A stretch of 64,000 nt of DNA from Acinetobacter sp. YWS30-1. Lineage in GTDB: Bacteria; Pseudomonadota; Gammaproteobacteria; Pseudomonadales; Moraxellaceae. The translations under genes and the position numbers were made by a program. This document shows, piece by piece, positions 1 through 45,827 of the stretch (its first letter is position 1; each line of letters opens with the position of its first letter). The notes under the pieces are model-generated. The model worked only from the letters and a program-made list of their open reading frames with translations. It searched no databases and had not been told where the DNA came from. The DNA is taken from positions 1,922,001-1,986,000 of the forward strand of contig NZ_CP114606.1 in NCBI RefSeq assembly GCF_033558715.1, given 5' to 3'.

Positions 1-1
1 C

Positions 2-1915
2 CACAATTTACATGCTGTCTGCATTCTTAAATCTATTCCAAATTCAGGTAAAAAAGACCATCAAACAACGATTATTAAAGTACTTGATCGATTTAGGTTA
101 GCAAATGAAGCTTATGCTGCATCGCAGCAAGCAACACAGCTCAGTAAGTCTCAACAAAAATATTTATGGCTATGGCAACAACTTCCTAGCGATAAAACAC
201 CATTAGCTGAGTTTGTAAAGAGCTTACGCAGCTTAGAAACCAATTCTAATCTGAACCGTTTTCAATATTTATTGATTCTTGATCTACGGCGTTTTTATGA
301 TTATGTGTTGGCACTGAAACCTAAAAAAAATTATTCAGCACCGCCCAAACACATAGATGAACCACATTATCTAGATGAGTACGGCGCAATTTTATGCTGC
401 CCACAAGACATACTACAAAAGGAAGATCCTGCTCTATATTACGAGAAATTACAGGATGAACAGCCAAATCAGCAATACTCAATCAATACAGCACAGGTAT
501 CGCCATTAACAAGCCAATCTAGTTTTTTACAACATAAAATTAGCCAGCTCACACAACAACACATTATTAGACAGCAGCATGATTTTATGTGTAGCAAGCA
601 TTATCCAGACTTCAATAGCCTGAGCTTACTTGTACAACATTGTCATCAACTCTATTTAAATCATCCAGAAAAAAACAAAGCATATCTTTTTATCTTACTC
701 AGTTTCTTGAGTGGTGTTCCTATTGAGCAATGGCTATATCTACAATCCAGACAACGCTATGCACTCAATAAACGACAGAAGGTCATTTTTGAAAACGATC
801 AATATTTTCTACGTTCCAAATTCACACTGTTTGAGGACTCTGCTTTTGAATACAAAGACCAATTGCTTAATCAGGTGACCCATTTCGATTTGCCTTTAGT
901 AAAAGAGCTGGTAGAGGGTTTAAGACAACCGCCAACAGTGAAGCAAGAACAGGTCGCACATGCATTAAAAAAATGCCGTGAAGAACTCTTCATTCCGTCG
1001 TTATCAACTAAAAAAATAAGTGTTTTATTACATCACTGTATTTACCATTACACTCAAAATGAACAACTAGCCGACATTCTTACAGGCATCGATGCAAATC
1101 GATCAGTTTCTATTTCATATTGTTCGTATCCAATCTACCGTTTGCAGCAAAGCTATCAGGGTACAGTACAACAACTATCAAATGATTTAGCAAAAGAAAT
1201 CCATGTCATTGATGATGATCGAGAAAGATTTGGTAGCTGTAAAGCGCCGAAACCTGCAACAGTGACGGCGATATTTGCATATTTACAACATCAGATTATT
1301 CAAGCTAAACACCATGGGCAAATGCTTGAGATGTTCAATCATTACAATGTCTGGCTGTGGCATATTTTATTATTGTTCAGTGCTGCTCGACCTGTCAGCG
1401 AGTTCCCGGGTTTCTTAAAAAATTTCGATTTAAAACAACAGTGGCTTTGGATTTCTGATAAAGAAATTCACTCAAGAACGGATGATGGGCGTTTAATCCC
1501 ATTATGTGATTTTGTTGTGAAGGAAATCCGCTTATTCATTACCTACTTAAATGAATTTAAACAACTACACCCAGAGCATCAACCGTATATTCAAGAAATT
1601 TTAAGCAGTAAAAGACCCCTTCTCAGTGTCTATCAACATGGTCAATGGCAAGCCCTCAGCCCTCATTTAGTCAACAGTTTCACTCGTATTATGCAACTTG
1701 ATCATGCCAATTGGCTTAGGCACACAGCTCGTGCATATCTCACCGAAAAAGCAGATGAAAACTTCATTCTGGCTTTGTTTGGGCATGAGCAAAACCAACA
1801 AGAAATGGGGCAAAAATTCTCAAGTCTTTCGCTTCAACAATATAAAGAACTCGCCAACTGCCTCAACGATATGCAGCACGCTTACCAAATTGATGGGATG
1901 TATGAACATGCTTAA
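2..1915 (+). CDS. Large tyrosine recombinase, 5' end outside window
   Basis: The frame is open from the window edge, so the gene begins upstream; 637 residues are visible. The TTG at 272 is only an internal codon. The C-terminal part carries a degenerate tyrosine recombinase catalytic core: an Arg motif SAARPVSE (near 1380), a WLRHTARAYL stretch supplying His and Arg (near 1710), LFGHEQ (near 1777), and a candidate nucleophile Tyr in SLQQYKEL near 1840. The several hundred residues before the core match nothing I recognise. The stop codon overlaps the start of the next gene, so the two are probably translationally coupled and may act together, as in Tn554-type or recombinase-trio elements. 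A third partner could lie upstream of the window. Confidence 0.75.
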   Translation, partial: HNLHAVCILKSIPNSGKKDHQTTIIKVLDRFRLANEAYAASQQATQLSKSQQKYLWLWQQLPSDKTPLAEFVKSLRSLETNSNLNRFQYLLILDLRRFYDYVLALKPKKNYSAPPKHIDEPHYLDEYGAILCCPQDILQKEDPALYYEKLQDEQPNQQYSINTAQVSPLTSQSSFLQHKISQLTQQHIIRQQHDFMCSKHYPDFNSLSLLVQHCHQLYLNHPEKNKAYLFILLSFLSGVPIEQWLYLQSRQRYALNKRQKVIFENDQYFLRSKFTLFEDSAFEYKDQLLNQVTHFDLPLVKELVEGLRQPPTVKQEQVAHALKKCREELFIPSLSTKKISVLLHHCIYHYTQNEQLADILTGIDANRSVSISYCSYPIYRLQQSYQGTVQQLSNDLAKEIHVIDDDRERFGSCKAPKPATVTAIFAYLQHQIIQAKHHGQMLEMFNHYNVWLWHILLLFSAARPVSEFPGFLKNFDLKQQWLWISDKEIHSRTDDGRLIPLCDFVVKEIRLFITYLNEFKQLHPEHQPYIQEILSSKRPLLSVYQHGQWQALSPHLVNSFTRIMQLDHANWLRHTARAYLTEKADENFILALFGHEQNQQEMGQKFSSLSLQQYKELANCLNDMQHAYQIDGMYEHA

Positions 1916-4900
1916 ACAAAAACATTATGCACATGAGCGCCGTGCTAAAGATAGAAATAAAAAACAAATGAAAGAGCGCTTACATATTCAATTGATTATT
2001 GAGGAGTTTCTCTCCCAAGAAAAATTACAACAGGCACAACAATCACAAAATTTCCCAGATCTCTATAACCAAGTGATTCAGCACTTAGAGCAACAAAAAG
2101 TAAGCTTTTCTTTAAAAAAGAGCTTTTATCAGCACTTTCGCAAACACATCATTCAATACAATCGCACCAATGATGCAGACTTACCACTGCCTACGCAGCA
2201 CCTCGCTTCTATTCAACGAGCCTCTTTACTCTTTAATGAATCTTGGTTAGAGAATTCGAAATATCTCACATATTTAAAAGAGCGACTCTGGCGTTATTGG
2301 CATACTGTAGAATATTTTTCGGATGATGAAATTGTTGGCAATCTTCTTATAAGTGCAATCCTGTACGGCGGACTTTCACATCATTCAAGCTTGAATGCTT
2401 TACTTGAACATCTCAAATCTGATGAAGCAATCTACCATCTTCAGACCTTACAACTTCCGCTTCTATTCTTAGAACCTCAATCGCCGCAATATGGTGATTT
2501 ATATGATCCTAAACAAACCTTAAGGAAATCTCGAAATTTTGTACCAGACCGGCTAACACAGCTCTGGATTACTCGATTTAAGACACAATTAATAGATATC
2601 CAACACGATTGTTACACTTATATCCGTTACGTTTTTAATGCCTTAGAGCTTTCTTTTAACCAGAAGAAATTTAATCAGCTTTTACAAACCTCCAGTCATT
2701 CATTTATGCAACTAGACAAGGTCAAATTAAGCCCTGCGCTTGCACAGTGTTTAACTGAAGAAATAGAAAGCTGTGGCTTAAGTCCAAGTGCTTTTAAACG
2801 CTATCTCTCACCTCAGCTAATACTTGACCACTCCGATCAAACTGAAGAACCACAGCCCCAAAATATCAACAACAGAGTAAAAGAGGAAAAATTACACACT
2901 GAAGATCCTCTTGAGGCACTTACTGCTTTGCATAAACAAATTTTGACGTTCTTTAAAAATAGGCATAAGACTACCTCGGATCTATGTAACCTGCTGCACA
3001 GCCAACATGCCTATCTTCCAGAAAATGCGAAACGGCTTGGGCTTTGGCTATTTAGCTTATTTCGTCCGACTACAGAAGATATTAAGCAAATCACAGAGCT
3101 TTATCAGCTCGATCAAAACAAGTACTTACTCTATATCAATCATCAGCAGAAGATTCGTCATTCTTCAATCTATAGTTATTACACCAAACTTGCCGAGTCA
3201 TGGTTATTACATAGCACCGATTTTATAGAAGAATGCAATCTCAATGATCACCTAGAAGTGATCTACAAGCGTATGTTAAACGGCGTCGGTAAATCTAAAT
3301 CACAAAAATTTGATCTCTTAAAACGTTTTCATCACTTTCAGCGTGTCATATTTGATGCTGATGTGTTCCCAATGCAGAATGAAAGGTTTCATTTAAGCTC
3401 ACCGAAAGCCGAAATCATCTCTGCAAAAATATTCCAACAGATGCTTGCGCGACTTGAATACTATAAAAGCCCAAGCTATACAGCCCATGATTTAGAAATG
3501 CTCAGTATCGTATATACGATAGCGTTTCGTACGGGCATGCGGATTAATGAAATACTCGGCATGCGAATCAAGGATGTTGAAGGTATTCAAGCCAGTTCAA
3601 TTTGGATACGTCCATATCGTGCAAAGCATCAACAACATTTACTTAAAACAGATAGTGCTGAACGCAATCTCAACGTTCAAATTCTACTAACTCAAGAGGA
3701 GCATCTTAAATTTCAACATTACTGTCAAGTACGGCGCCGTGCTTATAGGCCCAGTCAATACTTGTTCACGATGTGGAACAGTACTGAACGCCTTAAACCT
3801 AATATGGTGACACTTCCTTTTCAACGCATCCTAGATGCAATATTGCCTGGTCATCGTTATTCTTTTCATTCTTTACGGCATACTGCAGCGAATAACCTCG
3901 CTATAATTTTGACTATGGACTACGAGTTTGTAGTTGCATTCACGGACTATTCAAACGATCATTACAACCTCATCAGAAGTCATCTATTACGCTCTAAAGC
4001 ACCACAAGACAGCTGGTATTTAATTGCGCACCTGCTCGGTCATATTGAACCAAACGAGACCTTCCGAAGCTATATCCATCTCAGCTATGTGATGGCAGGT
4101 TTTCAATTACGTCAATTTGATCTGATGCTTTCCACCCAAATTATTCAAAAAATCTGTCCAACTTTAATAACGCCGTTGAAACATGCTCAAGAGATCCACC
4201 TCAGCAGTTTTGACACTCAAATGCTTCAAGCGACTCATGTAATACCATTAGGCATAGATAAACAATCAAGTATGCCAATCAATAAAAAAGAAATTCAGCA
4301 AAAACCTACTGATGATTGCATCTATGGTACTGCTCGATCAGAATATCCGTCTGCACTGATCATAAAAATACTCAAAGCATTAGATCAATCTTATACACCT
4401 GAGCTTCTGTCTCAAAAGTATGACTTTCCAATTAAGACACTCATGCTGTGGCAACAAAATATACTTAAGCTCAAACAACTCAAAAATCGCAAGAACCGAC
4501 CTCGCTTCATTATTGATGCTGATAAATCACAACGCATACTTCCACATATTGAAACCAAGGAAGAAAAAATAGTCTTAGAGTATTTTTTTAAACGGCTTAA
4601 TAAATTGAAAAGTGATGATGCAAACATCTTAAATGCACTACATATTTTTGAAATGAAAGCCAACATTTCACATGCTGGATTAATCTTTAATAGTGCTGAT
4701 ATAAGGCTAGCAAATCGATTTTTGACAGGAATTTATTCTTTATTTCCAGAAAAATATTGGCAGATTGCTATATCTTCTGAAATCTCTGAGGAAAAGCTCA
4801 TGGAACGACTGCAGTTTAAATTTCTATCTTGCAGCATGAACAGCAGTCTAAATAATTCTTTTAAGTTTGAGCTAGTATCCCAAAACAATGGAAAGGCACT

Positions 4901-4967
4901 AACCGTCTTACGCTATTGCATGTTGGTTTTACTGATCCTGTGTACGCCGTCGCAACCTAGATCATAG
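1908..4967 (+). CDS. Giant tyrosine recombinase (about 1019 aa)
   Basis: This second recombinase overlaps the first by eight bases. ATG 1908 is preferred because GGGA lies nine bases upstream; ATG 1893 or 1902 are alternatives. The catalytic core is in the middle: FRTGMRINEIL (first Arg, near 3525), FHSLRHTAANNL (His-x-x-Arg, near 3860), LLGHIEPNETF (near 4030) and a candidate Tyr in RSYIHLSY near 4070. About 530 residues precede this core and about 270 follow it, far longer than the usual 300-400 residue integrase. The C-terminal region includes a stretch (near 4335-4500) that could be a helix-turn-helix or homeodomain-like segment, but this is a guess. The last 20 residues are hydrophobic and may reflect a late frameshift. 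Confidence 0.75.
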   Translation: MLKQKHYAHERRAKDRNKKQMKERLHIQLIIEEFLSQEKLQQAQQSQNFPDLYNQVIQHLEQQKVSFSLKKSFYQHFRKHIIQYNRTNDADLPLPTQHLASIQRASLLFNESWLENSKYLTYLKERLWRYWHTVEYFSDDEIVGNLLISAILYGGLSHHSSLNALLEHLKSDEAIYHLQTLQLPLLFLEPQSPQYGDLYDPKQTLRKSRNFVPDRLTQLWITRFKTQLIDIQHDCYTYIRYVFNALELSFNQKKFNQLLQTSSHSFMQLDKVKLSPALAQCLTEEIESCGLSPSAFKRYLSPQLILDHSDQTEEPQPQNINNRVKEEKLHTEDPLEALTALHKQILTFFKNRHKTTSDLCNLLHSQHAYLPENAKRLGLWLFSLFRPTTEDIKQITELYQLDQNKYLLYINHQQKIRHSSIYSYYTKLAESWLLHSTDFIEECNLNDHLEVIYKRMLNGVGKSKSQKFDLLKRFHHFQRVIFDADVFPMQNERFHLSSPKAEIISAKIFQQMLARLEYYKSPSYTAHDLEMLSIVYTIAFRTGMRINEILGMRIKDVEGIQASSIWIRPYRAKHQQHLLKTDSAERNLNVQILLTQEEHLKFQHYCQVRRRAYRPSQYLFTMWNSTERLKPNMVTLPFQRILDAILPGHRYSFHSLRHTAANNLAIILTMDYEFVVAFTDYSNDHYNLIRSHLLRSKAPQDSWYLIAHLLGHIEPNETFRSYIHLSYVMAGFQLRQFDLMLSTQIIQKICPTLITPLKHAQEIHLSSFDTQMLQATHVIPLGIDKQSSMPINKKEIQQKPTDDCIYGTARSEYPSALIIKILKALDQSYTPELLSQKYDFPIKTLMLWQQNILKLKQLKNRKNRPRFIIDADKSQRILPHIETKEEKIVLEYFFKRLNKLKSDDANILNALHIFEMKANISHAGLIFNSADIRLANRFLTGIYSLFPEKYWQIAISSEISEEKLMERLQFKFLSCSMNSSLNNSFKFELVSQNNGKALTVLRYCMLVLLILCTPSQPRS

Positions 4968-5285
4968 CTGATCTGGCTGATAACCTGAAAACTCATAAAA
5001 GTCATGCAACAATTGAGCATAGACATCTGAAAAATTTATTAAGTTTTCTGGTTGTAAACCATAATGGTCAAAATAGCGATCATCAATGAAATAAGCTAAT
5101 CCTATGTGCGTGTTGAGATAAGTTGATACGCCCAGTTGCCTACAAAAATCAGGATTATATTGCAACTGTAATTGCGTATTACAAATAATTTTTGAGGCTA
5201 CAATTTTAGCTACATTGCGAATATTGAGATGGCGAATACTAGGATGCATCGATGTCAAAATTCGACTCGAAGAATAATTCATCAT
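4962..5285 (-). CDS. Hypothetical protein, 107 aa
   Basis: A compact ORF convergent with the giant recombinase, overlapping its last six bases. The protein has no signal peptide or membrane segment and is rich in Tyr, Asn and Asp, with normal-looking amino acid composition. I recognise no family. The start is one of two adjacent ATGs (5285 or 5282). AAGG lies about ten bases upstream of the first. Its place inside the island makes it likely island cargo or a small accessory of the recombinase pair. Confidence is limited because support rests on coding appearance alone. Confidence 0.5.
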   Translation of the reverse strand: MMNYSSSRILTSMHPSIRHLNIRNVAKIVASKIICNTQLQLQYNPDFCRQLGVSTYLNTHIGLAYFIDDRYFDHYGLQPENLINFSDVYAQLLHDFYEFSGYQPDQL

Positions 5286-5432
5286 GAGCGTTTGGCCTTC
5301 AATTGATTTAGATTTTTATCAAGTAATGATTTAGTTGCTTCTCGTTTCACAAGTAAGCATCTAAACTATGTCTATATTTATATAAAAACATGACTAAAAC
5401 GTCAAGTTTTTATTGTCTATTTGGCGGTAATA

Positions 5433-5759
5433 ATGACACTTGAATTAGACTCGAATGAATTTAAGATTCGATTGAAAGAAGTTAGAAAGATACGAAAGCT
5501 GACACAGCAAGAACTCGCTGAAAAAACGGGAATACCCGTAACCTCTATTGCGCATTTTGAGTCGGGCTCACGTAAACCTTCTTTAGAAAATTTTTATAAG
5601 CTCATTGTCGTACTTAATATATCAGCCGATTACATTTTAGGACGGAGTGAAGAGATGAGTGCATTAGGTGTTGATCCTATTATGAGCACTTTGCAAAAAT
5701 TACCTGAGGTTGAGCGAAGAATGATTGAGAAATTTATTGTTTCTTTAGATCATAACTAG
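5433..5759 (+). CDS. XRE-family helix-turn-helix regulator, 108 aa
   Basis: Residues of roughly 12-65 form a Cro/C1-type HTH with the typical pattern RKLTQQELAEKTGI followed by SIAHFESGSRKPSLENFYKL, then ISADYILGRSEE, the usual close of the domain. The C-terminal 40 residues are a short acidic helix that probably dimerises. ATG 5433 is chosen over the in-frame TTG 5421 because GGCGG sits just upstream of the ATG. It is divergent from the unknown gene at 4962-5285 and is followed by a terminator, so it is a single-gene unit. The likely role is a repressor controlling island genes; the target is unknown. Confidence 0.85.
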   Translation: MTLELDSNEFKIRLKEVRKIRKLTQQELAEKTGIPVTSIAHFESGSRKPSLENFYKLIVVLNISADYILGRSEEMSALGVDPIMSTLQKLPEVERRMIEKFIVSLDHN

Positions 5760-5797
5760 AGTCGACCCTGCATATAGAATCTGAAGACTAGAAAATT

Positions 5798-5823
5798 AAA
5801 AAACCACCTAACGTGGTTTTTTT
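5798..5823 (+). terminator. Rho-independent terminator after the XRE gene
   Basis: ACCAC and GTGGT flank a five-base loop, with an A-run before and seven T after, so it can work in both directions. It lies 40 bases after the XRE stop codon. Confidence 0.7.
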
Positions 5824-6669: not shown

Positions 6670-7869
6670 CTAATCAAATATTCTTTCGCCGCAGATCGAA
6701 TCCAAGTGGTCAGCCCAAAATTGCATAATATCCACCCTTTCCCTTAAGTGAGCACCTTTATCATAGGCACCCTTCACACCTGACTTTTGATGAGACAATG
6801 CTGATTCAATCACTTGCTCTTTGTCGCTAAAAACATCATTCAAATAGGTACTCGCAATGTGGCGAAATCCATGAGGATCTTGCTTCCCCGCATACCCCAT
6901 TCGTTTCAATGCTGAATTGAAGGTCACGTCAGATATAAATTTTTCATTTGAATTACTTCTTGATGGAAACAAATATTCATTGCCATCCCCTGAAATCTCT
7001 TTTAATCGAAGCAATAATTTAATTGCTTGCTTCGGTAACGGTATCGCATGAGCTATTCTCCTTTTCATAATATCTGCAGGTCTAAGCCATACGCTTGTTT
7101 CAAAATCAAATTGATCCCAACGTGCGGCTCTTAACTCACCAGGCCTAGGAAATAGCACTACTAGCAATTCGAGTCCAATACTAGTAGTTTCAGAGCGATA
7201 ATTACGGATTGCATTAACAAGGTCTGGAAGTTCATCCATTACGACATGTTTCATTGAACCTGCAGTATGATTTGCTAGGCCTTTTCGTACTCTTGCAAGA
7301 GGGTTGTAGCTGATTAAATTATCATCAATTGCATAATCATACGCATTACGACAATACGAAATTAATTTTTCAAGACGATTAAATATCCCTTCATTTAATT
7401 GTTTTTTTCTGAAAAATTCTTTCCACTCAGACGCAGAAATTTCTTTAGATAGACGTTGACCAAATACTGGCAATATATGCCTTTCTATAGACTGATATTC
7501 TTTCTTAAAAGTTTTATCAGTCCATACACCTTTTTTCGTATTCATCCATTTAATCAGTAAATTACCAAACAACATATTCTCTTGTTGTTTCGCCTCCAAT
7601 AACTTCTCATTTTTAGTTTTTAAAATAATTTCACCATTTTGATATTTAATCGCCAATGATCGTGCTTCTTTGACTGAGATTACGGGGTAACTTCCTAACC
7701 CAAGCCATGTCCACTTACCAACTGTACTCTTAAATCTTAACTGCCATGACTTTTTACCTGTTACACCAACTTTTAAATACAGACCTGAAATATCGGAAAC
7801 TCTGTACTCAGATTCTTGTGCTTTTAACGCTGCATATTGGGTATCTGTGAGTAATTTAGATTTAGCCAT
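6670..7869 (-). CDS. P4-type tyrosine integrase of the island, 399 aa
   Basis: Full-length integrase of the P4/IntS family. Residues 1-90 are the DUF4102-like arm-binding domain (LTDTQYAALKAQ...YLKVG...WLGLGSYP). About 100-190 is the core-binding SAM-like domain. From about 205 the catalytic domain follows, with Arg242 in FPRPGELR, His333 and Arg336 in HGFRHIAS, His360 in ALSHQ and the probable nucleophile Tyr369 in GAYDKG. All key residues are present, so it should be active. It catalyses site-specific integration and excision at the adjacent tRNA gene. No clear Shine-Dalgarno sequence precedes ATG 7869. Three copies of AGGATACA between its start and the tRNA are candidate regulatory or arm sites. 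Confidence 0.93.
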   Translation of the reverse strand: MAKSKLLTDTQYAALKAQESEYRVSDISGLYLKVGVTGKKSWQLRFKSTVGKWTWLGLGSYPVISVKEARSLAIKYQNGEIILKTKNEKLLEAKQQENMLFGNLLIKWMNTKKGVWTDKTFKKEYQSIERHILPVFGQRLSKEISASEWKEFFRKKQLNEGIFNRLEKLISYCRNAYDYAIDDNLISYNPLARVRKGLANHTAGSMKHVVMDELPDLVNAIRNYRSETTSIGLELLVVLFPRPGELRAARWDQFDFETSVWLRPADIMKRRIAHAIPLPKQAIKLLLRLKEISGDGNEYLFPSRSNSNEKFISDVTFNSALKRMGYAGKQDPHGFRHIASTYLNDVFSDKEQVIESALSHQKSGVKGAYDKGAHLRERVDIMQFWADHLDSICGERIFD

Positions 7870-8062: not shown

Positions 8063-8139
<77 letters not shown>

Positions 8140-16699: not shown

Positions 16700-18123
16700 T
16701 GACAAAGACTACAACAAACTCGAAAACTAAAAAAATCCTGCTGAACGCTTTTGATATGAACTGCGTGGGTCATATCAATCATGGCTTGTGGGCTCATCCG
16801 CGGGATGAATCACACCGTTTTAATGAACTGAGCTACTGGACTGATCTGGCGAAAACGCTGGAAAAAGGTCTGTTTGACGGCCTGTTCATTGCCGACATTA
16901 CCGGAGTCTATGATGTCTATCAGAACGGCATTGACCTGACTCTAAGAGAATCCATTCAGTTACCCAGCCATGACCCAAGCACGTTGGTATCTGCCATGGC
17001 AGCAGTCACTGAGAATCTCGGTTTTGGTGTCACGGTGAATCTCAGCTATGAGTCACCGTACCAGTTCGCCCGTCGTTTTGCCAGTCTGGATCACCTGACC
17101 CATGGCCGTATCGGCTGGAATATTGTCACCGGTTATCTGGACAGTGCACAACGTCTGATTGGCGAAAATGGCCTGAAAGACCATGACCTGCGCTATGAAC
17201 AGGCCGAGGAGTTTTTACAGCTGTGCTACAAATTCTGGGAAGACTCCTGGGAAGATAATGCAGTTTTAAAAGATAAGCAAAATCGAATTTTTACTGATCC
17301 CACCAAGGTTCATCAGATCAATCATCAGGGCCAGTTCTACCGCAGCCAAGGTGTATTCCAGGTTTCCCCTTCTGTTCAGCGTACACCTGTATTGTTCCAA
17401 GCCGGTGCTTCTCCACGTGGCATGGCTTTTGCCACTCAGCATGCAGAAGGCATGTTTATTGGTGGTGATCACCCGGACAAGATCAAGAAACAGGTCGATC
17501 AGATCCGTCGTCAAGCGGTTGAACAAGGTCGTGATCCTGAAGCGATCAAGATTTTTGTCGGCATTACCGTGGTCACTGCAGCAACGGATGAAATAGCACA
17601 GCAAAAGCTGGATGAATATCGCGCCTATGCCAGCCCTGAAGCAGGTCTTGCACATTATTCCAGCTCAGTTGGCATTGACCTGTCCAAATTTGCTGATGAT
17701 GAACCGATCCCGTACAAGAAAACCAATAGTATCGCAACGGTCAATCAAAAATTTAAAGAGCAGCAGATCACGCCAAATGACCTAAAAGCTCAGCATGTGT
17801 TAGGTGGGCGTTATCCACTAATTGTTGGCAGCGGTGCCACGATAGCAGAAAAACTGATTCAGCTGATTGATGAAACCGGTATTGATGGCTTCAACCTGAC
17901 TCGCACGGTTGCACCTGAATCGCATCAGGATTTTATCCAATTAGTGATTCCTGAATTACAGCAGCGCGGACGCTATAAAACTGAATATGAACAAGGCAGT
18001 TTCAGACACAAGCTGTTTCAGCAAGGAGACCGCTTACCTAGTGCGCATCCAGTGCAGCAATTCCGATGTCAAAGCTCCGCCTCAACAGCGAACACGAACC
18101 TAAAGCAAAAACAATCAGCATAA
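16699..18123 (+). CDS. LLM-class flavin monooxygenase, NtaA/SnaA/DszA family, 474 aa
   Basis: A luciferase-like TIM-barrel protein. The family blocks are NHGLWAHPRDESHRFNEL near the N terminus, LGFGVTVNLSYESPYQFARR, HLTHGRIGWNIVTGYLDSA and FQAGASPRGMAFATQHAEGM. The DszA/SnaA/NtaA group oxidises sulfones or N- and S-containing heterocycles using FMNH2 and oxygen. ATG 16699 overlaps the upstream stop and follows a GGGGG stretch. The length is in the family range; the last 25 residues are low-complexity. With the SfnB-like pair and a MetNI-type importer this indicates organosulfur or sulfone scavenging. Confidence 0.9.
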   Translation: MTKTTTNSKTKKILLNAFDMNCVGHINHGLWAHPRDESHRFNELSYWTDLAKTLEKGLFDGLFIADITGVYDVYQNGIDLTLRESIQLPSHDPSTLVSAMAAVTENLGFGVTVNLSYESPYQFARRFASLDHLTHGRIGWNIVTGYLDSAQRLIGENGLKDHDLRYEQAEEFLQLCYKFWEDSWEDNAVLKDKQNRIFTDPTKVHQINHQGQFYRSQGVFQVSPSVQRTPVLFQAGASPRGMAFATQHAEGMFIGGDHPDKIKKQVDQIRRQAVEQGRDPEAIKIFVGITVVTAATDEIAQQKLDEYRAYASPEAGLAHYSSSVGIDLSKFADDEPIPYKKTNSIATVNQKFKEQQITPNDLKAQHVLGGRYPLIVGSGATIAEKLIQLIDETGIDGFNLTRTVAPESHQDFIQLVIPELQQRGRYKTEYEQGSFRHKLFQQGDRLPSAHPVQQFRCQSSASTANTNLKQKQSA

Positions 18124-38766: not shown

Positions 38767-39456
38767 GTTGATACCTATTTTAACTCTGAGTATAAATATG
38801 GTTTTCTGAATAAAACCCTTCAAAAAATCTAACAATAGATGTGGATCCAACGTGATGATCCAAATTTAGCATTGATGTATCAACGTTCACAAAGTTTCCA
38901 ATTCAGAATCGAACTAACGCAGTAATAGTATATTTAGTACGAGAGGCTATAAAATGTATGCCACAGTTTTCGCAGTCAAGGAATAACTGGATGATAAGGT
39001 AGATTGAATATTAGATCTGTATTCAGAGTCATCTTGTCACAATTTTGAAGTTTAACAATTTATTAATTTTGATTGTGCTACTACTTGCATAGAATCTGCT
39101 AAGGTTCAAATATTCTTAGCTCTATAATATTTTTATTGTTCCTATTTGAACAATTTTTTAATCCACATTATTTTATTCAATAAATAGTTATATTTTCTTT
39201 AAAGGAATTAAATTCTAAGGTTATAAAATTTATATCTTCCAAGTTATAAATTTAAGAACATTTAATATTTTCAATTTCTAAAACATTTCTTTAATTAATT
39301 CTACAAAATAATTCATAAGATAATTGTTCTTACATAAGGTGAAAGGGTTTTCACGCTAAGCCCGAATATCTTACATAAGCAGACACCGCTCATACATATC
39401 CAGAGAGTTTTATCCCCTACACTGAAATCAAGTTTTAGAAAATTAGAGGATTTCAT
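38767..39456. other. AT-rich intergenic desert
   Basis: No ORF with a ribosome site is seen over 690 bases. The plus strand at about 38936-38947 contains TAGTACGAGAGG, identical to the 23S sarcin-ricin loop, but the flanks do not match rRNA. Confidence 0.4.
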
Positions 39457-39621
39457 ATGAAACAGTTTTCGAAAATTCTAATACTCATTATGATAGGCCT
39501 TTATGGTACTTCTACTATTGCAGCAGATGCTATTCCTTTGGAAGCTAAAGCCGCCGCAGAAGCACAAAAAGCTGCACTAGAATATTCTGAAAATCAGAAG
39601 AGTGATTCAGACTCAGACTAA
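39457..39621 (+). CDS. Small secreted Ala-rich protein, 54 aa
   Basis: AGAGGA lies six bases upstream of ATG 39457. A signal peptide (MKQFSKILILIMIGLYGTST then IAA) should leave a mature peptide of about 31 residues, Ala/Glu/Lys-rich and helical (AKAAAEAQKAALEY) with an acidic Ser-Asp tail SDSDSD. A strong terminator follows at once. No family recognised; it is likely periplasmic. Confidence 0.7.
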   Translation: MKQFSKILILIMIGLYGTSTIAADAIPLEAKAAAEAQKAALEYSENQKSDSDSD

Positions 39622-39626
39622 AAACA

Positions 39627-39653
39627 AAATAAAGCCCACGAAGGGCTTTATTT
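39627..39653. terminator. Terminator after the secreted microprotein
   Basis: AAATAAAGCCC and GGGCTTTATTT pair across five bases; usable by the convergent gene at 39684-39773 as well. Confidence 0.8.
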
Positions 39654-39683
39654 ACATACGGGAATCATTAGAAAAAAGTTATT

Positions 39684-39773
39684 TTAATAACTCAATGATT
39701 GTCCTACTCCATAAACCATCAAGGTAATAAGGAATACGACCAATGCGGAGACAGCTAATTCTGCTTTAGTCAT
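39684..39773 (-). CDS. Single-span membrane microprotein, 29 aa
   Basis: GAGGG lies eight bases upstream of ATG 39773. The peptide is MTKAELAVSALVVFLITLMV followed by YGVGQSLSY: one membrane span with a charged N terminus. It ends next to the terminator shared with the secreted microprotein. Confidence 0.6.
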   Translation of the reverse strand: MTKAELAVSALVVFLITLMVYGVGQSLSY

Positions 39774-40263
39774 GTGTTTTACCCTCATGGAGAGCTGTAC
39801 ATTATTTATACACTACATAAGCATGAAACCAAATAACAAAATATTACATAATCTTGAATATTTAAACTAAATTAAAACACAAAATAAGAGAGTAAAACTA
39901 TAAATTAAACCTTAATTATCAATAAATATATTTCTAATTATCAATTACTTAATGAATTTTATTTAAAAAATTAATAGATTATTTCTTTGAAATCATAAAA
40001 TAATCTTTGTTTATAAAAAATTTTTCTATGTAATATATTGCCATTCCAAAATTTAAGCTTCTGAACTTAATGTCTTTTTAAGTCATTTCATAGGTCTTAA
40101 TTTACTATTTCATAATTTATTTTCCTTATTTGATATCAAATTAAAACTAAACACCTGATATGTATTTTTAATTAATCAACAACTGCTAATTTATTTTCAA
40201 TAAAATTCTCTTTTTTCCATAAAGATCATTTTTTATTATTTTTAAAACCTCAATATATAAATT
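39774..40263. other. AT-rich intergenic desert
   Basis: About 490 bases of very AT-rich sequence with no supported ORF, hairpin or repeat. Confidence 0.4.
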
Positions 40264-40291
40264 TAAAGATCCTAAATAGAAGGATCTTTAA
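40264..40291 (-). terminator. Terminator of the 61-codon gene
   Basis: AAAGATCCT and AGGATCTTT flank a seven-base loop, 11 bases after the stop codon of the gene at 40303-40488. The T-run is short. Confidence 0.6.
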
Positions 40292-40302
40292 GTTTTAAAT
40301 TA

Positions 40303-40488
40303 CTACATAGATTTGAGTACTTCTAACTCGAAATCAAGCTCCATCATCTTTTCCAGATTTGGTACAATCGCATTCACCCAAGTGCCACTATTCCAGACTT
40401 TCAGAATTTCATTTTCTTCCTTATAGAATGCACAGTCCTGAGCTGATATATGATGAATAACCTGGGTTCCTTCTGGTATATTTCTCAT
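40303..40488 (-). CDS. Hypothetical soluble protein, 61 aa
   Basis: GGAGG lies five bases upstream of ATG 40488, which is better placed than the GTG at 40500. The protein (MRNIPEGTQVIHHISAQDCA and so on) is compact, acidic and lacks a signal. EKMMELDFELEVLKSM closes it. No family recognised. Confidence 0.65.
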   Translation of the reverse strand: MRNIPEGTQVIHHISAQDCAFYKEENEILKVWNSGTWVNAIVPNLEKMMELDFELEVLKSM

Positions 40489-40661
40489 ACAGACCTCCAC
40501 ACATTTGGTTTATTTTTAATTTAGCAGAAGATTTGAATTTTTCGTTTACATTGCTTTATAGAGTTGTATTAATTGACTATTTAATAGATTAATCATGTAA
40601 CTTTCATTTTGATACAACTTTTCTTACTCATCTTATCTAAAAATATTTAAATGATAAAAAT

Positions 40662-40693
40662 AAAAAATCCCAACAATATATGTTGAGATTTTC
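40662..40693 (-). terminator. Terminator of the 46-codon gene
   Basis: On the minus strand AAAATCTCAACA pairs with TGTTGGGATTTT (one G-T pair), followed by T, 43 bases past the stop of the gene at 40736-40876. Confidence 0.7.
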
Positions 40694-40735
40694 TATTTAT
40701 AATCAAATTAAACTAGCAGTAAATATAAGTAATGC

Positions 40736-40876
40736 TCAGGCTATAAAATCTCGTAAAATGTGTTGATTGATCACTTCATCAAAACTTAGATTTGAAAGAT
40801 TTTGCTTGTTATGTTTGATGCTTTTATAACAATAACTCGCTGCAATACCCATACTAATTAAAGTCAACAATTTCAT
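40736..40876 (-). CDS. Small protein with N-terminal hydrophobic segment, 46 aa
   Basis: GAGGTG lies four bases upstream of ATG 40876. Residues 1-16 (MKLLTLISMGIAASYC) form a short hydrophobic anchor; the remainder is polar (YKSIKHNKQNLSNLSF...). It may be a membrane-attached microprotein or a very short secreted one. Confidence 0.55.
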   Translation of the reverse strand: MKLLTLISMGIAASYCYKSIKHNKQNLSNLSFDEVINQHILRDFIA

Positions 40877-41291
40877 TGTTCACCTCAAAATTAAAAATAT
40901 TAGAAACTGTGAAATTAAAATATCAGCTTGCTTTGTAGTGGTCTAAGCCAGTTTGGAAAGCTTTTTGTATGGTATGTAAATTCATCAAAACTATTTCAGC
41001 TCTATAAAAATCATTATCAATTTTTTGCTTAGCCTTGAATTGTCTTATTTTCCCTTAACTGGCTCAACGAATGCAGTAGAAAATAAGGATCATTGATGAT
41101 TAACATTCTTAAACGGAAGATCATATTTGAATACAAAAAGTACATCATTTTAAAGCGGCATGGCCGCAATCAAATGAGATGCAAAACATAAATTCGAGGA
41201 AGATAAATCAGAATCTGCTATGATAGCTTCCACTTAGTGGACTCTTTTATGTCTTCCCTTATCTCCTATTTATAAGTAAAGGAGTATCACA
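40877..41291. other. Intergenic region upstream of the rluE leader
   Basis: An AT-rich stretch of about 415 bases. It has a small hairpin GCGGC-ATG-GCCGC at 41154-41167 and must hold the rluE promoter. Nothing else could be supported. Confidence 0.4.
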
Positions 41292-41336
41292 ATGGGCAAC
41301 ATGACTGCCACATCAGAATTATTTTATATATTTTAG
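41292..41336 (+). CDS. 14-codon leader ORF upstream of rluE
   Basis: AAAGGAG lies seven bases upstream of ATG 41292, a much better ribosome site than that of rluE. The 14-residue peptide MGNMTATSELFYIF ends nine bases before the rluE GTG. It may feed ribosomes to rluE (translational coupling), or be a control peptide. Confidence 0.5.
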   Translation: MGNMTATSELFYIF

Positions 41337-41345
41337 TAGGTTAAA

Positions 41346-42128
41346 GTGAAAATTGTCATTCTTAACAAGCCTTATGACGTCCTCTCCCAATTTCGTCCAG
41401 ATGAAAAACATCAGACTATGGCAGATTTCGTAGACGATCCGGATCTGCGTATTGCCGGTCGTCTGGATATGGATTCTGAAGGTTTGATGTTCCTGACCGA
41501 TCATGGTGGTTTAAACCAATATATTACCAATCCAGCCAGCAAAAAATTCAAAACTTATCTGGTTCAGGTCGATGGTGATATAACTGAAGAAGCTTTGGAA
41601 CAGCTTCGTAAGGGCGTTGAACTGAATGACGGTATTACGCTGCCAGCCAAAGCAATCAAAGTCACTGAACCGGAATGGTTATGGGAACGTAATCCCCCGG
41701 TACGTTTCCGTGCTTCTGTTCCAACTTCATGGGTTGAAATTTCAATCTGTGAAGGCCGTAACCGTCAGGTACGTCGTATGACTGCAGCAGTCGGCTTTCC
41801 TACCTTACGTTTGATCCGCACCAAAATCGGTTCGATTGATCTGGTACAGTTGGGTCTGCAACCAGGTGAAACCAAAGAAATCGAACCGTTGCTCTATCCA
41901 GACTTTAAAGATGTGCCTGCACAGGAACCGTATCGTTCGCGCTCTTATGTGAAAAAGCCGGGTGGTACCGGTGGTAAACCGATTAACAAGAAAGTAACGA
42001 AAGACGGCACCAAGAAAAAAACCGGTACACCACGTATCTGGCAAATGGAAGAAGGTGAAAAACCACGTCGCAAGACCAATGGTACCACCCGTCCAAATAC
42101 CAAGAGTCGTGGCCGTCGTACACGTTAA
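41346..42128 (+). CDS. rluE: 23S rRNA pseudouridine synthase RluE family with basic tail, 260 aa
   Basis: Residues 1-180 align by eye with E. coli RluE: VILNKPYDVLSQF, GRLDMDSEGLMFLTDHG (catalytic Asp in GRLDMDSEG), LPAKAIKVTEPEWLWERNPP, EGRNRQVRRMTAAVGFPTL. RluE makes pseudouridine 2457 in 23S rRNA. Unlike the E. coli enzyme, about 75 C-terminal residues form a Lys/Arg/Gly/Thr-rich tail (PGGTGGKPINKKVTKDGTKK), probably an RNA-binding extension. The GTG 41346 start has only a weak ribosome site and follows a 14-codon leader ORF. Confidence 0.92.
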   Translation: MKIVILNKPYDVLSQFRPDEKHQTMADFVDDPDLRIAGRLDMDSEGLMFLTDHGGLNQYITNPASKKFKTYLVQVDGDITEEALEQLRKGVELNDGITLPAKAIKVTEPEWLWERNPPVRFRASVPTSWVEISICEGRNRQVRRMTAAVGFPTLRLIRTKIGSIDLVQLGLQPGETKEIEPLLYPDFKDVPAQEPYRSRSYVKKPGGTGGKPINKKVTKDGTKKKTGTPRIWQMEEGEKPRRKTNGTTRPNTKSRGRRTR

Positions 42129-42136
42129 GCCACTGC

Positions 42137-43495
42137 TCAGGTCGGGAAGATCAAACTAAAAACCACACCTTGAGGATGGTTATTCACCTGAACTTCCCCC
42201 TGATGCAACTGCATAATCGACTGCACAATCGCCAAGCCCAAACCACCCGTTTGGGCTTTTTGATGCCGGCTGCTATCAATCTGATAAAAACGTTCAAACA
42301 GATGGGCTAAATGCTGCTCGGGGATCTGTACACCTGCTGTCAGCACATCAATTCGACAGCTATTTTCTGTAGTCGTCGCCGTGATTCTGATCTCGCCATT
42401 TTCCTTGCCATATTGCACGGCATTGCTGAGCAAATTGGCAAGCGCACGTTGCAGATGTTCCGGATGCGCAGATAGATTCAGTTGAGCCGGAATATCCGCA
42501 TAAATAGACATATTTTTTTCTTCTGCCAGAAACTCAAAATATGCCAGCAAATCCTCTATGATCTGGCTCAGTTCTAGTGTCTGTTTTTCTATCTGATAGT
42601 GGCCATGTTCCACCCGGGCAATAAACAGCATGTTTTCAATCATCTGGGTCAGACGTTCATACTCTTCCAGATGGGAATACAGCAAGTTTTCTAATTCATC
42701 ACGACTACGTGACTTCGACAAGGCAATCTGGGTTTGCCCCATCAAGTTATTCAGGGGCGTTCGTAATTCATGAGAAATATCTTCAGAAAATCGGGCCAGC
42801 TGTTCATAGCCTTGCTGGATTCGGTCCAGCATGGCATTCATGGCCTCTGTTAATTGCTGTACCTCAATAGTCCGGGATGGCAACTCGATACGCTGATCCA
42901 GCTGCTGCACATTAATTTGCTGAGTGGCGTAAATTAATTGGCGCATGGATCGCAGTAGATAGTGTCCCATCAGCCAGACTAACAAAGTGGATAAAATAAT
43001 ACCGAGCAGAGTGTATATCACTAATTTTGTCAGGTAATGCTTTAAAACCTGTTGCCCTGCCACGAGCTGCTTACCGGCAATCAGTTGATAAGTCTGTCCA
43101 TTAAAGCTCACTTGCTTAAATGCCAAACGGGTCGTAGCTTGTTCAAGCTTATTATTTTGATAATTCAGTCTACTGTGATAATCCAATAGAGGAATAGTAA
43201 TATCTAAAGGATTAATATCAATTAATGTATTCTGCGCGTTTTTAAGGATCAGTAAGTTGTCTTCCTGTCCAAGCATATTCTCATAAAGCTCCGGATGTTC
43301 GATCAGCACTTGAAAACTTTGCTGATCAGCCAGAAATATTTCTATTCTGGAAATCCGCAAGGCCAAAGCTTCATCCTGCTGTTGTAGCACCATCTGCTGC
43401 ATATTGTGATAGGACAATCCGCCGATGCTTAAAAAAACGATACAAGAAATGAGGCCAAAAGCGATGCCGAGACGTGTGCCCAAATGCATTTTCAT
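42137..43495 (-). CDS. Sensor histidine kinase of the CusS/HprS group, 452 aa
   Basis: TM1 at 9-27, a periplasmic domain, TM2 at about 157-178, a HAMP region, HisKA with phospho-accepting His242 in SEDISHELRTPLNN, and HATPase with LANLLSNAVQYG and GGLGLAIVQSIM. The length equals E. coli HprS (YedV, 452). It overlaps the response regulator by four bases. Gene order (regulator and kinase divergent from hiuH) suggests the HprRS system, which responds to hydrogen peroxide through Cys; the only Cys visible near the membrane is Cys18. CusS-like copper sensing is the alternative. Confidence 0.88.
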   Translation of the reverse strand: MKMHLGTRLGIAFGLISCIVFLSIGGLSYHNMQQMVLQQQDEALALRISRIEIFLADQQSFQVLIEHPELYENMLGQEDNLLILKNAQNTLIDINPLDITIPLLDYHSRLNYQNNKLEQATTRLAFKQVSFNGQTYQLIAGKQLVAGQQVLKHYLTKLVIYTLLGIILSTLLVWLMGHYLLRSMRQLIYATQQINVQQLDQRIELPSRTIEVQQLTEAMNAMLDRIQQGYEQLARFSEDISHELRTPLNNLMGQTQIALSKSRSRDELENLLYSHLEEYERLTQMIENMLFIARVEHGHYQIEKQTLELSQIIEDLLAYFEFLAEEKNMSIYADIPAQLNLSAHPEHLQRALANLLSNAVQYGKENGEIRITATTTENSCRIDVLTAGVQIPEQHLAHLFERFYQIDSSRHQKAQTGGLGLAIVQSIMQLHQGEVQVNNHPQGVVFSLIFPT

Positions 43496-44163
43496 GCTTG
43501 CACATCCATTTTATAGCCCATACCGCGTACAGTATGAATAAGTTTTGGACTGAAGTGATCATCAATTTTAGAACGTAATCGGCGTACAGCAACATCAACG
43601 ACATTGGTATCAGTATTAAAATTAATATTCCAGACCAGTGAAGCAATTTGTGTCCGGGTTAACACTTCGGACTGGTGTTCCATCAGCAATTGTAAAAGCG
43701 CAAACTCTTTTTGGGTAAGCTCAATTTTTTGCTGGTCTCGAAATACTTCCCGAGTTAAACGATTCAGTTCTAAATTGGCTACCTGATACATTTCATGTTC
43801 AACTTTTGGTACACGGCGCAGCAGACTTTTAATTCGAGCCAAGAGTTCGATATAAGAGAAAGGCTTGGTTAAATAGTCATCTGCACCCAGTTCCAATCCT
43901 TTGACCCGGTCAAGCACATGATCTTTGGCCGTCAGCATAAGTACCGGGACTTTAGAGAAAGTACGCAAGGTTTTGAGGACTTGCCAGCCGTCCAGGTCGG
44001 GCAGCATCACATCCAGCAATACCAGATCAATTTGTTGCTGTTCCAGCACCGATAAAGCATGTAGGCCATCACCCACCTGGGTAGTCTGGTAGCCGGATTC
44101 ATTTAAGCCTGTGGCCAAGAAGCCGGCAATTTTGGTTTCATCTTCTACAATTAAAATATGCAT
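43492..44163 (-). CDS. OmpR-family response regulator of the CusR/HprR group, 223 aa
   Basis: Receiver domain with Asp51 as phosphorylation site in LVLLDVMLPDLDGW, switch Thr78 and Lys100 in DYLTKPFSY, followed by a winged-helix DNA-binding domain (ELTQKEFALLQLLMEHQSEV, ending HTVRGMGYKMDV). The length equals E. coli HprR (YedW, 223). It is divergent from the GlcG-like/hiuH pair, with a dyad GATTAC-GTAATC in the spacer that resembles the CusR/HprR operator. Confidence 0.9.
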   Translation of the reverse strand: MHILIVEDETKIAGFLATGLNESGYQTTQVGDGLHALSVLEQQQIDLVLLDVMLPDLDGWQVLKTLRTFSKVPVLMLTAKDHVLDRVKGLELGADDYLTKPFSYIELLARIKSLLRRVPKVEHEMYQVANLELNRLTREVFRDQQKIELTQKEFALLQLLMEHQSEVLTRTQIASLVWNINFNTDTNVVDVAVRRLRSKIDDHFSPKLIHTVRGMGYKMDVQA

Positions 44164-44196
44164 GGGCTGAGTTTAATCAATTTCATACAGCGCAAA

Positions 44197-44214
44197 GATT
44201 ACAAATTGGTAATC
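44197..44214. promoter_or_regulatory. Candidate operator of the HprR/CusR-like regulator
   Basis: GATTACAAATTGGTAATC is a perfect six-base inverted repeat GATTAC/GTAATC with a six-base spacer, lying between the regulator and the GlcG-like gene. It resembles the known E. coli HprR/CusR box CATTACAAAATTGTAATG, sharing ATTACAAA and GTAAT. Confidence 0.65.
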
Positions 44215-44283
44215 TGATTGTCATCCATGAGCTTCAATTCTTTGATTATGATCTTCTCAATTTCTATATGACTGAACATTATC

Positions 44284-44781
44284 ATGAGAAGCAGATTGAA
44301 TCAGAGAAAAATATTGATATATCTAGCGAGTTTGGCGATGGCCAGCTTAAGTCATGCTGAATTAAAAACAGCCTATACTATGGACTTAAGCACAGCAAAC
44401 CAACTTGCTGAGAACGTCATGCAGGCTTGTCAGAAAGCCAGCAAACCCGCTGCAGTCACAGTACTGGATCAAGGCGGCAATGTCCTGACCAGCCAACGGC
44501 ATGAATCTGTCGGAATTCACAATTTAACTGCATCACAGCGTAAAGCCTTTACTGCATACTCGACTAAGACAAATACATTAGATTTTATGCGTCATGCACA
44601 AAAGAACCCGGATGCACAGAATTTAAATACCTTGGATGAATTGTTATTACTGGGCGGCGGGGTGCCTGTAGTTTATAAAAACCAACTCATTGGCGCTGTT
44701 GGTGTCGCAGGCTCTGGTGGCTCTGAACAGGATCATCAGTGTGCCGTACAAGGCATTCAACATACTTTAAAACAACTTTAA
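44284..44781 (+). CDS. GlcG/HbpS-family heme-binding-like protein, periplasmic, 165 aa
   Basis: A signal peptide (KILIYLASLAMASLSHA) precedes a GlcG/HbpS domain: LSTANQLAENVMQACQK, AVTVLDQGGNVLTSQRH, ASQRKAFTAYSTKTNTLDF and the GGGVPVVYKNQLIGAVGVAG loop. Streptomyces HbpS binds heme and modulates a redox two-component sensor; GlcG-type proteins are otherwise poorly understood. Here it sits opposite a two-component system and just before hiuH, so it may report redox or heme state to the sensor. That is inference. Confidence 0.85.
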   Translation: MRSRLNQRKILIYLASLAMASLSHAELKTAYTMDLSTANQLAENVMQACQKASKPAAVTVLDQGGNVLTSQRHESVGIHNLTASQRKAFTAYSTKTNTLDFMRHAQKNPDAQNLNTLDELLLLGGGVPVVYKNQLIGAVGVAGSGGSEQDHQCAVQGIQHTLKQL

Positions 44782-44812
44782 TTTTATCCATCTCTAGAGT
44801 AGGAACAGACAA

Positions 44813-45211
44813 ATGAAAAAAATTATTTTTGGTGCTCTTCTAGCGGCGACAGCAAGCTTTTCTTTTGCACAGAATCCTTTAAGTGTGCATGTGCTGAATC
44901 AGGAAACTGGTCTGCCTTCCGCCAATGTCGCGGTGATTCTGGAAGCTCAGCAAGGTGACAAGTGGATAAAACTGAATGAGTTAAAAACAGATGCCAATGG
45001 CCGTATCAAAGAGTTTTATCCTAAAGATACAGCTTTACAGAAAGGCATCTATAAAGTGACCTTCAAAACCGGTGACTGGTTTAAGGCCAATAATCAACGC
45101 ACTTTCTTCCCTGAAGTACCTGTGGTATTTACGATTGACGGTGCTTTGGAGCACTATCATATTCCCTTATTACTGAGCTCTTATGGTTATTCAACCTATC
45201 GTGGTAACTAA
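44813..45211 (+). CDS. hiuH: Periplasmic 5-hydroxyisourate hydrolase (transthyretin-like), 132 aa
   Basis: A signal peptide of 19 residues (cleavage FSFA-Q) precedes a transthyretin-like domain close to E. coli HiuH (YedX). Catalytic residues are His26 in LSVHVLN, Arg64 in ANGRIKEF and His116 in EHYHIP. The C-terminal signature is YRGN (129-132) where the family has YRGS. The enzyme hydrolyses 5-hydroxyisourate formed from urate. The HprRS system in E. coli controls its hiuH, matching the context here. Confidence 0.93.
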   Translation: MKKIIFGALLAATASFSFAQNPLSVHVLNQETGLPSANVAVILEAQQGDKWIKLNELKTDANGRIKEFYPKDTALQKGIYKVTFKTGDWFKANNQRTFFPEVPVVFTIDGALEHYHIPLLLSSYGYSTYRGN

Positions 45212-45224
45212 TTCTTAATCCCTA

Positions 45225-45248
45225 AAAGCGTCATTTTCATGGCGCTTT
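45225..45248 (+). terminator. hiuH terminator
   Basis: AAAGCGTCAT and ATGGCGCTTT pair (one G-T) around TTTC and are followed by ATTTT. Confidence 0.75.
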
Positions 45249-45380
45249 ATTTTGATAAGTAAAATGGCTGCATTTCATCATTCATCTGGCTTTCGCTTGT
45301 TATTTATCTCCTAGAGTGCTATTTATGATTCATATAATTAATATTTTTAAAATAAGTGTATCTAAAAAAGGAGTTTTGCA

Positions 45381-45773
45381 ATGGATCAGCAAGTGAACCA
45401 GATGTTTAATCAGGACCGGTTAATTCAGTATCTCGGTGCGCATCTAATTTCTTATAACCACAATCATGCGAAGATTGAACTTAAAGTGTCTGAACAACAT
45501 TTACAGGGGCATCAGACCTGTAACGGCGCTGTGATTTTTGCATTAGCTGATGCTGCATTTGCCATTGCCTGCAATACCGGCGAATACCCAGCAGTCGGCC
45601 AACATTGTGGTATTCATTATCTGAAACCGGCACTGCTCGGTGATACCCTTACCGCCATAGCTGAACATAAAGCCAGTAGCGGTCGCAGTGGGATTTACGA
45701 TATTCAGATCCTGAATCAGGAAGATCAAATCGTGGCTGAATTCCGTGGAACCTCACGACTGATCGTTAAATAA
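45381..45773 (+). CDS. PaaI-type hotdog thioesterase, 130 aa
   Basis: Hotdog fold with the PaaI block NGAVIFALADAAFAIACN and the HCGIHYLKPALLGDTL strand, ending IVAEFRGTSRLI. PaaI hydrolyses hydroxylated phenylacetyl-CoA esters to prevent CoA trapping. In Acinetobacter paaI normally lies in the paa cluster; here it stands alone, so it might act on other acyl-CoAs. AAGGAG sits upstream of ATG 45381. Confidence 0.88.
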   Translation: MDQQVNQMFNQDRLIQYLGAHLISYNHNHAKIELKVSEQHLQGHQTCNGAVIFALADAAFAIACNTGEYPAVGQHCGIHYLKPALLGDTLTAIAEHKASSGRSGIYDIQILNQEDQIVAEFRGTSRLIVK

Positions 45774-45795
45774 TTATTCTAAAACTTAATGCAAT

Positions 45796-45827
45796 AAAAA
45801 AAACCGGTGCATCAACACCGGTTTTTT
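45796..45827. terminator. Bidirectional terminator
   Basis: ACCGGTG-CATCAA-CACCGGT flanked by an A-run and a T-run, between convergent genes. Confidence 0.85.

Follow-up and report, generated by a model that had tools for sequence, protein, structure and literature searches.

A giant tyrosine recombinase, a recombinase-like partner and a small protein form a widespread gene set and candidate mobile module in Acinetobacter

What do two very long, overlapping reading frames at the edge of an Acinetobacter tRNA island encode, and could they move DNA by themselves? The window analysed here is a 64,000-nucleotide stretch (C1:1922001-1986000) of the 3.3-Mb genome of Acinetobacter sp. YWS30-1, and a sequence-only reading of it had proposed a coupled pair of giant recombinases overlapping by eight bases, with a third partner perhaps just upstream. 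The overlapping pair was confirmed on the plus strand: the 3' part of the first gene, A, occupies window positions 2-1915 (the full gene encodes 725 aa and starts at C1:1921738, 263 bases before the window), and the second, B, spans positions 1908-4967 and encodes 1019 aa. Extending the sequence upstream also brought the expected partner to light, a 215-aa gene S on the plus strand (L013:3101-3748) that lies directly upstream of A and overlaps it by 11 bases. S, A and B form a three-gene operon, all on one strand, that begins upstream of the window.

Searches with S, A and B of YWS30-1 returned nothing in NCBIfam (hmmscan, E 0.1) or PADLOC, and the only Pfam family above cut-off among them was Phage_integrase in B (PF00589, residues 534-665, preceded by an N-terminal part of about 500 residues), other matches falling below cut-off. 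S carries neither a recombinase signal nor a domain above cut-off, and single-sequence searches of A or B against solved structures gave no match. None of the titles and abstracts listed by the literature searches named the gene set. The S-A-B set is real and widespread, and it is unnamed as far as searched: the earlier view that parts of this pair lie beyond recognised families was borne out, and within the comparisons made the proteins did not turn out to be ordinary members of a named transposon family.

The catalytic motif of a tyrosine recombinase is complete in B (R545, K580, H654, R657, H712 and Y722). Five of these residues are invariant in all 43 B relatives compared, and H654 is present in 42 of the 43. 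A profile of 46 B relatives found XerA among solved structures at E 2e-4, over the catalytic part, and 32 of the 46 matched XerA- or XerC-type models (best E 1e-9), though B of YWS30-1 itself matched none. B has a complete tyrosine-recombinase site and is predicted to be active.

A presents a different picture. Its pocket residues (R551, K575, N658, R661, H662 and H683) are invariant in 39 of 39 relatives, and its box II reads N-W-L-R-H, but the column in which the catalytic tyrosine is expected is variable, with phenylalanine in 14 relatives, tyrosine in 12, histidine in seven, methionine in five and one gap. When residues 543-695 of A were compared with an ordinary-integrase profile, they aligned at probability 92.6% (E 4.6e-7) and placed N658 against the box II histidine. 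Together, the invariant pocket, the variable nucleophile column and this alignment make it very probable that A has a recombinase fold in which the nucleophile is not conserved. PF00589 matched one of 37 A relatives, a protein from Vibrio, below cut-off (E 3.7e-4); a profile of A did not find a recombinase among solved structures, and profile comparison detected no relationship between A and B. A tyrosine eight residues beyond the nucleophile column occurs in 28 of the 39 relatives. A might still catalyse through another residue. Since A lacks a conserved catalytic tyrosine, the assertion that both ORFs carry the R...HxxR...LGH...Y core was half right, holding for B and failing for A, and the catalytic residues are lost among relatives of A and kept among those of B. 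Neither two catalytic recombinases nor a trio of recombinases is supported; the operon holds one active-type protein (B), one nucleophile-less recombinase-like protein (A) and one small protein (S).

The gene set is common in Acinetobacter. At E 1e-10, 55 of 119 Acinetobacter genomes had a B match, so that nearly half of the sampled species genomes hold a giant recombinase annotated as an integrase and a partner annotated as hypothetical; a class-wide sample gave seven of 369 genomes, YWS30-1 included. Protein searches placed B relatives on 258 of 72,556 PLSDB plasmid records (257 of the 258 from Acinetobacter) and A relatives on 250, and S, which diverges fast, was found on 15 plasmid records only. 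A genome scan recovered at least 79 loci, mostly from Acinetobacter and Psychrobacter, with further hosts in Vibrio, Pseudidiomarina, Malonomonas and MAGs of Pseudomonadaceae and Thiotrichaceae. A and B keep constant company: A stands directly upstream of B in 73 of the 79 loci listed, and the two overlap in 45 of these 73 when B is taken from its first start codon. The remaining loci comprise one fusion (L110, in which both the A and the B parts are clear), three in which A lies apart or was not found (L038, L086 and L102) and two in which the B ORF is not intact. A small ORF terminates close to the start of A in 67 of the 72 loci that allowed a judgement.

Fused forms of A and B add to this association. 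An A-B fusion of 1963 aa occurs in Pseudidiomarina, and YWS30-1 itself carries, on contig C2, a 1683-aa A-B fusion that follows a 240-aa ORF (L015:5431-11201, equivalent to C2:105431-111201). The protein of the Malonomonas locus (L102) is 1905 aa long; its B part is clear and its match to A is very weak. In 12 of the 119 Acinetobacter genomes, YWS30-1 included, the B profile matched frames of 1682-1760 aa, with A-like and B-like parts demonstrated for the C2 frame of YWS30-1 only. Such natural fusions, evident in two lineages and faint in a third, support the idea that A and B act in a physical complex.

The tRNA island that the sequence-only reading had named as the setting is present. Downstream of B lie a convergent 107-aa ORF (4962-5285, minus strand) with a WbqC match below cut-off, a 112-aa helix-turn-helix regulator (5421-5759, plus strand) scoring 78 bits against an RstR cut-off of 80, two small ORFs and then an ordinary 399-aa island integrase (6670-7869, minus strand), which lies outside the trio and adjoins the island's target, a tRNA-Met gene (8063-8139, minus strand). 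The 46-base 3' part of this tRNA (8063-8108, minus strand), also found on related plasmids, is the likely attachment core. Judging by the integrase beside the tRNA and the core common to plasmids, the host element is an integrase-tRNA island; the ordinary integrase would explain how the island entered the tRNA, leaving the trio nested inside. A second copy of the core was not found in the genome. Near the far end of the island lies an element with 94% identity to DNA annotated as IS3 family, and the second copy may for that reason have been lost. Close relatives of the trio occupy the same tRNA-Met island in two other Acinetobacter. The 107-aa ORF, among the loci compared, occurs only in relatives of the YWS30-1 type (L016, L017, L036 and L037); the idea that it and a 106-aa Psychrobacter ORF are circularly permuted partners was rejected, as they are not homologous.

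A second tRNA raised the possibility that the trio is itself the integrase of its tRNA islands, a reading we regard as very unlikely. Its appeal comes from a split tRNA-Gly near trio loci in three genera (Acinetobacter, Psychrobacter and Vibrio) and from a 252-base island end (L126:8143-8395 and 16752-17006) present twice in eight of eight A. towneri-type plasmids with the trio and once in eight of eight other records. In two Psychrobacter loci (L072 and L078), moreover, the start of S lies about 250 and 340 bases away from the split tRNA-Gly, and no other recombinase was found in 20 and 7 kb on that side, the other island ends lying beyond the stretch read; the trio thus stays a possible integrase there. 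However, four tRNA-Gly islands could be read to the tRNA (28.9, 30.7, 33.7 and 58.2 kb; three from Acinetobacter, one from Vibrio), and in all four an ordinary integrase of about 390 aa sits beside the intact tRNA-Gly with the trio inside the island, as in the window. These islands, therefore, probably integrate by their own integrase and hold the trio as a nested passenger, and the tRNA-Gly anticodon-loop core TTGCCAAGGTTGGGG, which occurs close to many trio loci, was rejected as the trio's target. Three other Psychrobacter loci (L063, L066 and L068) likewise have an integrase match and a tRNA-Met downstream of the trio. The same island end also occurs in YWS30-1 where both the trio and any PF00589 match are absent, in a stretch (L132, C1:2927001-2946000) whose roughly 11 kb with HipBA-type and SNF2-type genes, by ORF reading, terminates where the island end meets the 3' half of a tRNA-Gly (core C1:2941174), next to two intact tRNA-Gly genes. 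Relative to L126, L058 has 937 bases inserted immediately behind the tRNA-Gly core.

Evidence bearing on movement of the trio itself comes from its left side. A block of about 6.94 kb (C1:1920887-1927823, or 38887-45823 in the locus's own numbering) that starts about 1.1 kb before the window and covers window positions 1-5823 is 99.2% identical on an A. johnsonii plasmid (NZ_CP140004), where the cargo to the left differs. Similarity of the YWS30-1 locus to two other left flanks ends at positions 38880 and 38887 of that numbering. Depending on the type, the border lies about 165-245 bases before S. In the commonest plasmid type this distance is about 166 bases, and across 20 loci of this type the border ATAACAGAAAACT (or one base off) meets six different flanks. 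The first junction examined falls inside repM: among the 40 of 223 matches listed for a query across it, 17 covered the flank side only, up to base 784, five matched from base 783 and five matched both sides. A second flank query gave 30 of 30 listed matches (of 197) starting at base 607 or 608, within one base of the border. Because junctions recur at one base with several flanks, we count the left end as a real border, and it is sharp in several contexts.

The counterpart junction is missing. Twenty-six records hold at least 80% of the repM query, and five records with the border hold just 74 bases of repM, ending at the border; the rest of repM was absent from those five, and the comparisons turned up no full empty site showing both junctions. 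Two of the five records matching both sides were inspected: one carries complete annotated S, A and B, and in the other a transposase and metal genes come after S. On the right the border is not fixed: the distance behind B at which pairs of loci diverge ranges between 7 and some hundreds of bases, and one group of breaks clusters at 30-35 bases. The left-border junctions could reflect a few events followed by homologous recombination. Two candidate sites were discarded: trio-less plasmid DNA starting exactly after the B stop codon represents one shared junction at an apparently truncated gene rather than an empty site, and a pdif module was rejected because no dif-like site adjoins the trio in 31 loci scanned for XerC/XerD sites (one plasmid, L032, has good dif-like sites at a distance, 7 kb away on the left and 14 kb away on the right). 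The sequence-only reading had ranked the pair as the window's best candidate for an undescribed mobile system; the gene set is indeed unnamed as searched, and movement by itself is plausible from one sharp, recurrent border.

Such a border also has to be weighed against a resident role, in which the trio would resolve multimers, for example, or exchange cargo at a fixed site without transposing, and would spread on its carriers. The trio's position fits this reading in several places: it sits near one end of tRNA islands, next to the integrase and tRNA-Met in the window, and in the Vibrio tRNA-Gly island (L111) with only about 180 bases between the start of S and the far end; B ends 2.3 kb from repB on an A. 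towneri and an A. baumannii plasmid; and behind the trio of the A. johnsonii plasmid come an integrase, the attachment core and repB. Yet the same left border abuts unrelated sequences, one of them within repM, and the stretches examined of the YWS30-1 locus and of chromosome-size contigs such as L040 and L082 contain no RepB, ParA or ParB match. We treat a resident module as a possible explanation, at well below even likelihood.

The genes around the trio are of varied kinds. Divergent genes upstream of it in YWS30-1 encode a type I restriction system, AbiD and proteins of the Druantia type. In this stretch (L012:1-9724) DruE matches a Druantia type II model over nearly its full length and its two neighbours match DruF and DruG only weakly; these are possibly a divergent Druantia. 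Other copies of the trio lie beside CRISPR I-Fv, Qat or BREX genes (BrxA, BrxB and BrxC), and still others adjoin metal-efflux or metabolic genes. Looking for cargo across relatives, as had been advised, did show that many relatives have neighbours of different kinds, frequently linked to defence. Flanks so frequently occupied by restriction-modification, Druantia-like, BREX, Qat, CRISPR or other defence genes could suggest that the trio is one more defence or anti-mobile-element system. We think this unlikely: S, A and B have no PADLOC model, the recombinase site of B is complete, the neighbours of some copies are metal-efflux or metabolic genes, and four of ten Psychrobacter neighbours tested matched no PADLOC model at E 1e-10.

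Weighing these observations, we give roughly even chances to S-A-B being a site-specific recombination module that moves itself, maybe with cargo, between plasmids and islands. In such a module B would cut and rejoin DNA through its tyrosine at the border upstream of S, an activity we infer from the intact active site. A would take part in the synapse within the same complex, binding DNA without cutting it and retaining the pocket for the DNA phosphate, and S may serve as an accessory or as a directing or stabilising factor. The module would transfer itself, perhaps with adjoining cargo, among plasmids and islands, and islands like the tRNA-Met one would travel by means of their own tRNA integrases. 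If the set is mobile, it would be an overlooked path along which Acinetobacter plasmids and islands exchange cargo for defence, metals and other functions. With its invariant, nucleophile-less pocket, A would also allow a direct test of why a partner that does not cut is retained in several recombinase elements.

How does S-A-B relate to recombinase elements already described? Tn554 encodes TnpA (about 360 aa) and TnpB (about 630 aa), both catalytic, and the small TnpC. The pairing of two recombinase-type genes with a small one resembles S-A-B, whereas Tn554 has two catalytic recombinases and S-A-B has the full residue set in B alone. The RIT (recombinase in trio) elements consist of three recombinases of about 400-500 aa each; they share with S-A-B three adjacent genes, but all three are recombinases, in place of one active-type, one degenerate and one small protein. 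The Gamma-Mobile-Trio (GMT) is a mobile element with rich defence cargo and three conserved genes in Gammaproteobacteria. Its GmtY model (NF040693, cut-off 340 bits) had no match to the trio in YWS30-1 and seven other genomes, which sets GMT apart from S-A-B: none of seven trio genomes had a match above cut-off, and the sole match in YWS30-1 lies elsewhere than the trio, at 33.4 bits. No GMT model was among the seven NCBIfam families matched by the 46 B relatives. The recomb_assoc model NF040692, which we take to be the GMT small protein, likewise had no match in the seven trio genomes, control genomes being equally without one.

Closer parallels are found in SE and GInt. The SE are strand-biased circularizing integrative elements with an intA-tfp-intB-srap operon encoding two RHRY recombinases, a protein with the recombinase fold but without the RHRY residues (Tfp) and a small protein (Srap); their ends are given as imperfect inverted repeats of 13-19 bases with a 6-base footprint, and SE in Acinetobacter are described as embedded in plasticity regions, the authors suggesting that they hitchhike with other elements (PMC10214605). 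SE share with S-A-B a recombinase operon with a degenerate recombinase-fold protein and a small protein, but differ in having four genes and two catalytic recombinases, the S-A-B order being small, degenerate, active. BLAST at E 0.05 or better did not match the pAQU1 SE proteins, assigned by gene order and size (545, 614, 671 and 161 aa), to any of the representative S, A and B sequences, and a profile comparison of SE with S-A-B gave no match, though its integrase control was equally negative. In GInt, ginA and ginB have a recombinase core, ginC lacks some catalytic residues and ginD is small; the cargo begins at the last stop codon, and both island ends carry att repeats of 10-11 bases (PMC5385486). 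GInt thus resemble S-A-B in their recombinase operon, one degenerate member (GinC) and small protein (GinD), and depart from it in having two recombinase-core genes and the small gene last instead of first, a judgement made on gene content and order.

By analogy, S-A-B would work most like SE and GInt. Our best reading is that it represents an unnamed variant of the multi-protein tyrosine-recombinase class that includes Tn554, GInt, SE and GMT, with the caveat that for GInt, Tn554 and RIT the comparison covers gene content as described. A stronger proposal would make it a distinct class of element, in which a single active giant recombinase, a dedicated and conserved nucleophile-less partner (separate or fused) and a small factor nest in tRNA islands and plasmids and build defence islands around themselves; we consider this rather doubtful and put it forward tentatively.

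Two further features of individual loci were noted. A 9-base tandem repeat, TTTTGTCAG, follows B in up to nine copies in four Psychrobacter loci (L063:13218-13300, L064, L066 and L074); tandem repeats after B were rejected as a general site, being seen in these four loci. On the A. nosocomialis plasmid CP033563 (L017), A and B are fragmented, and a second S-like stretch lies about 14 kb away.
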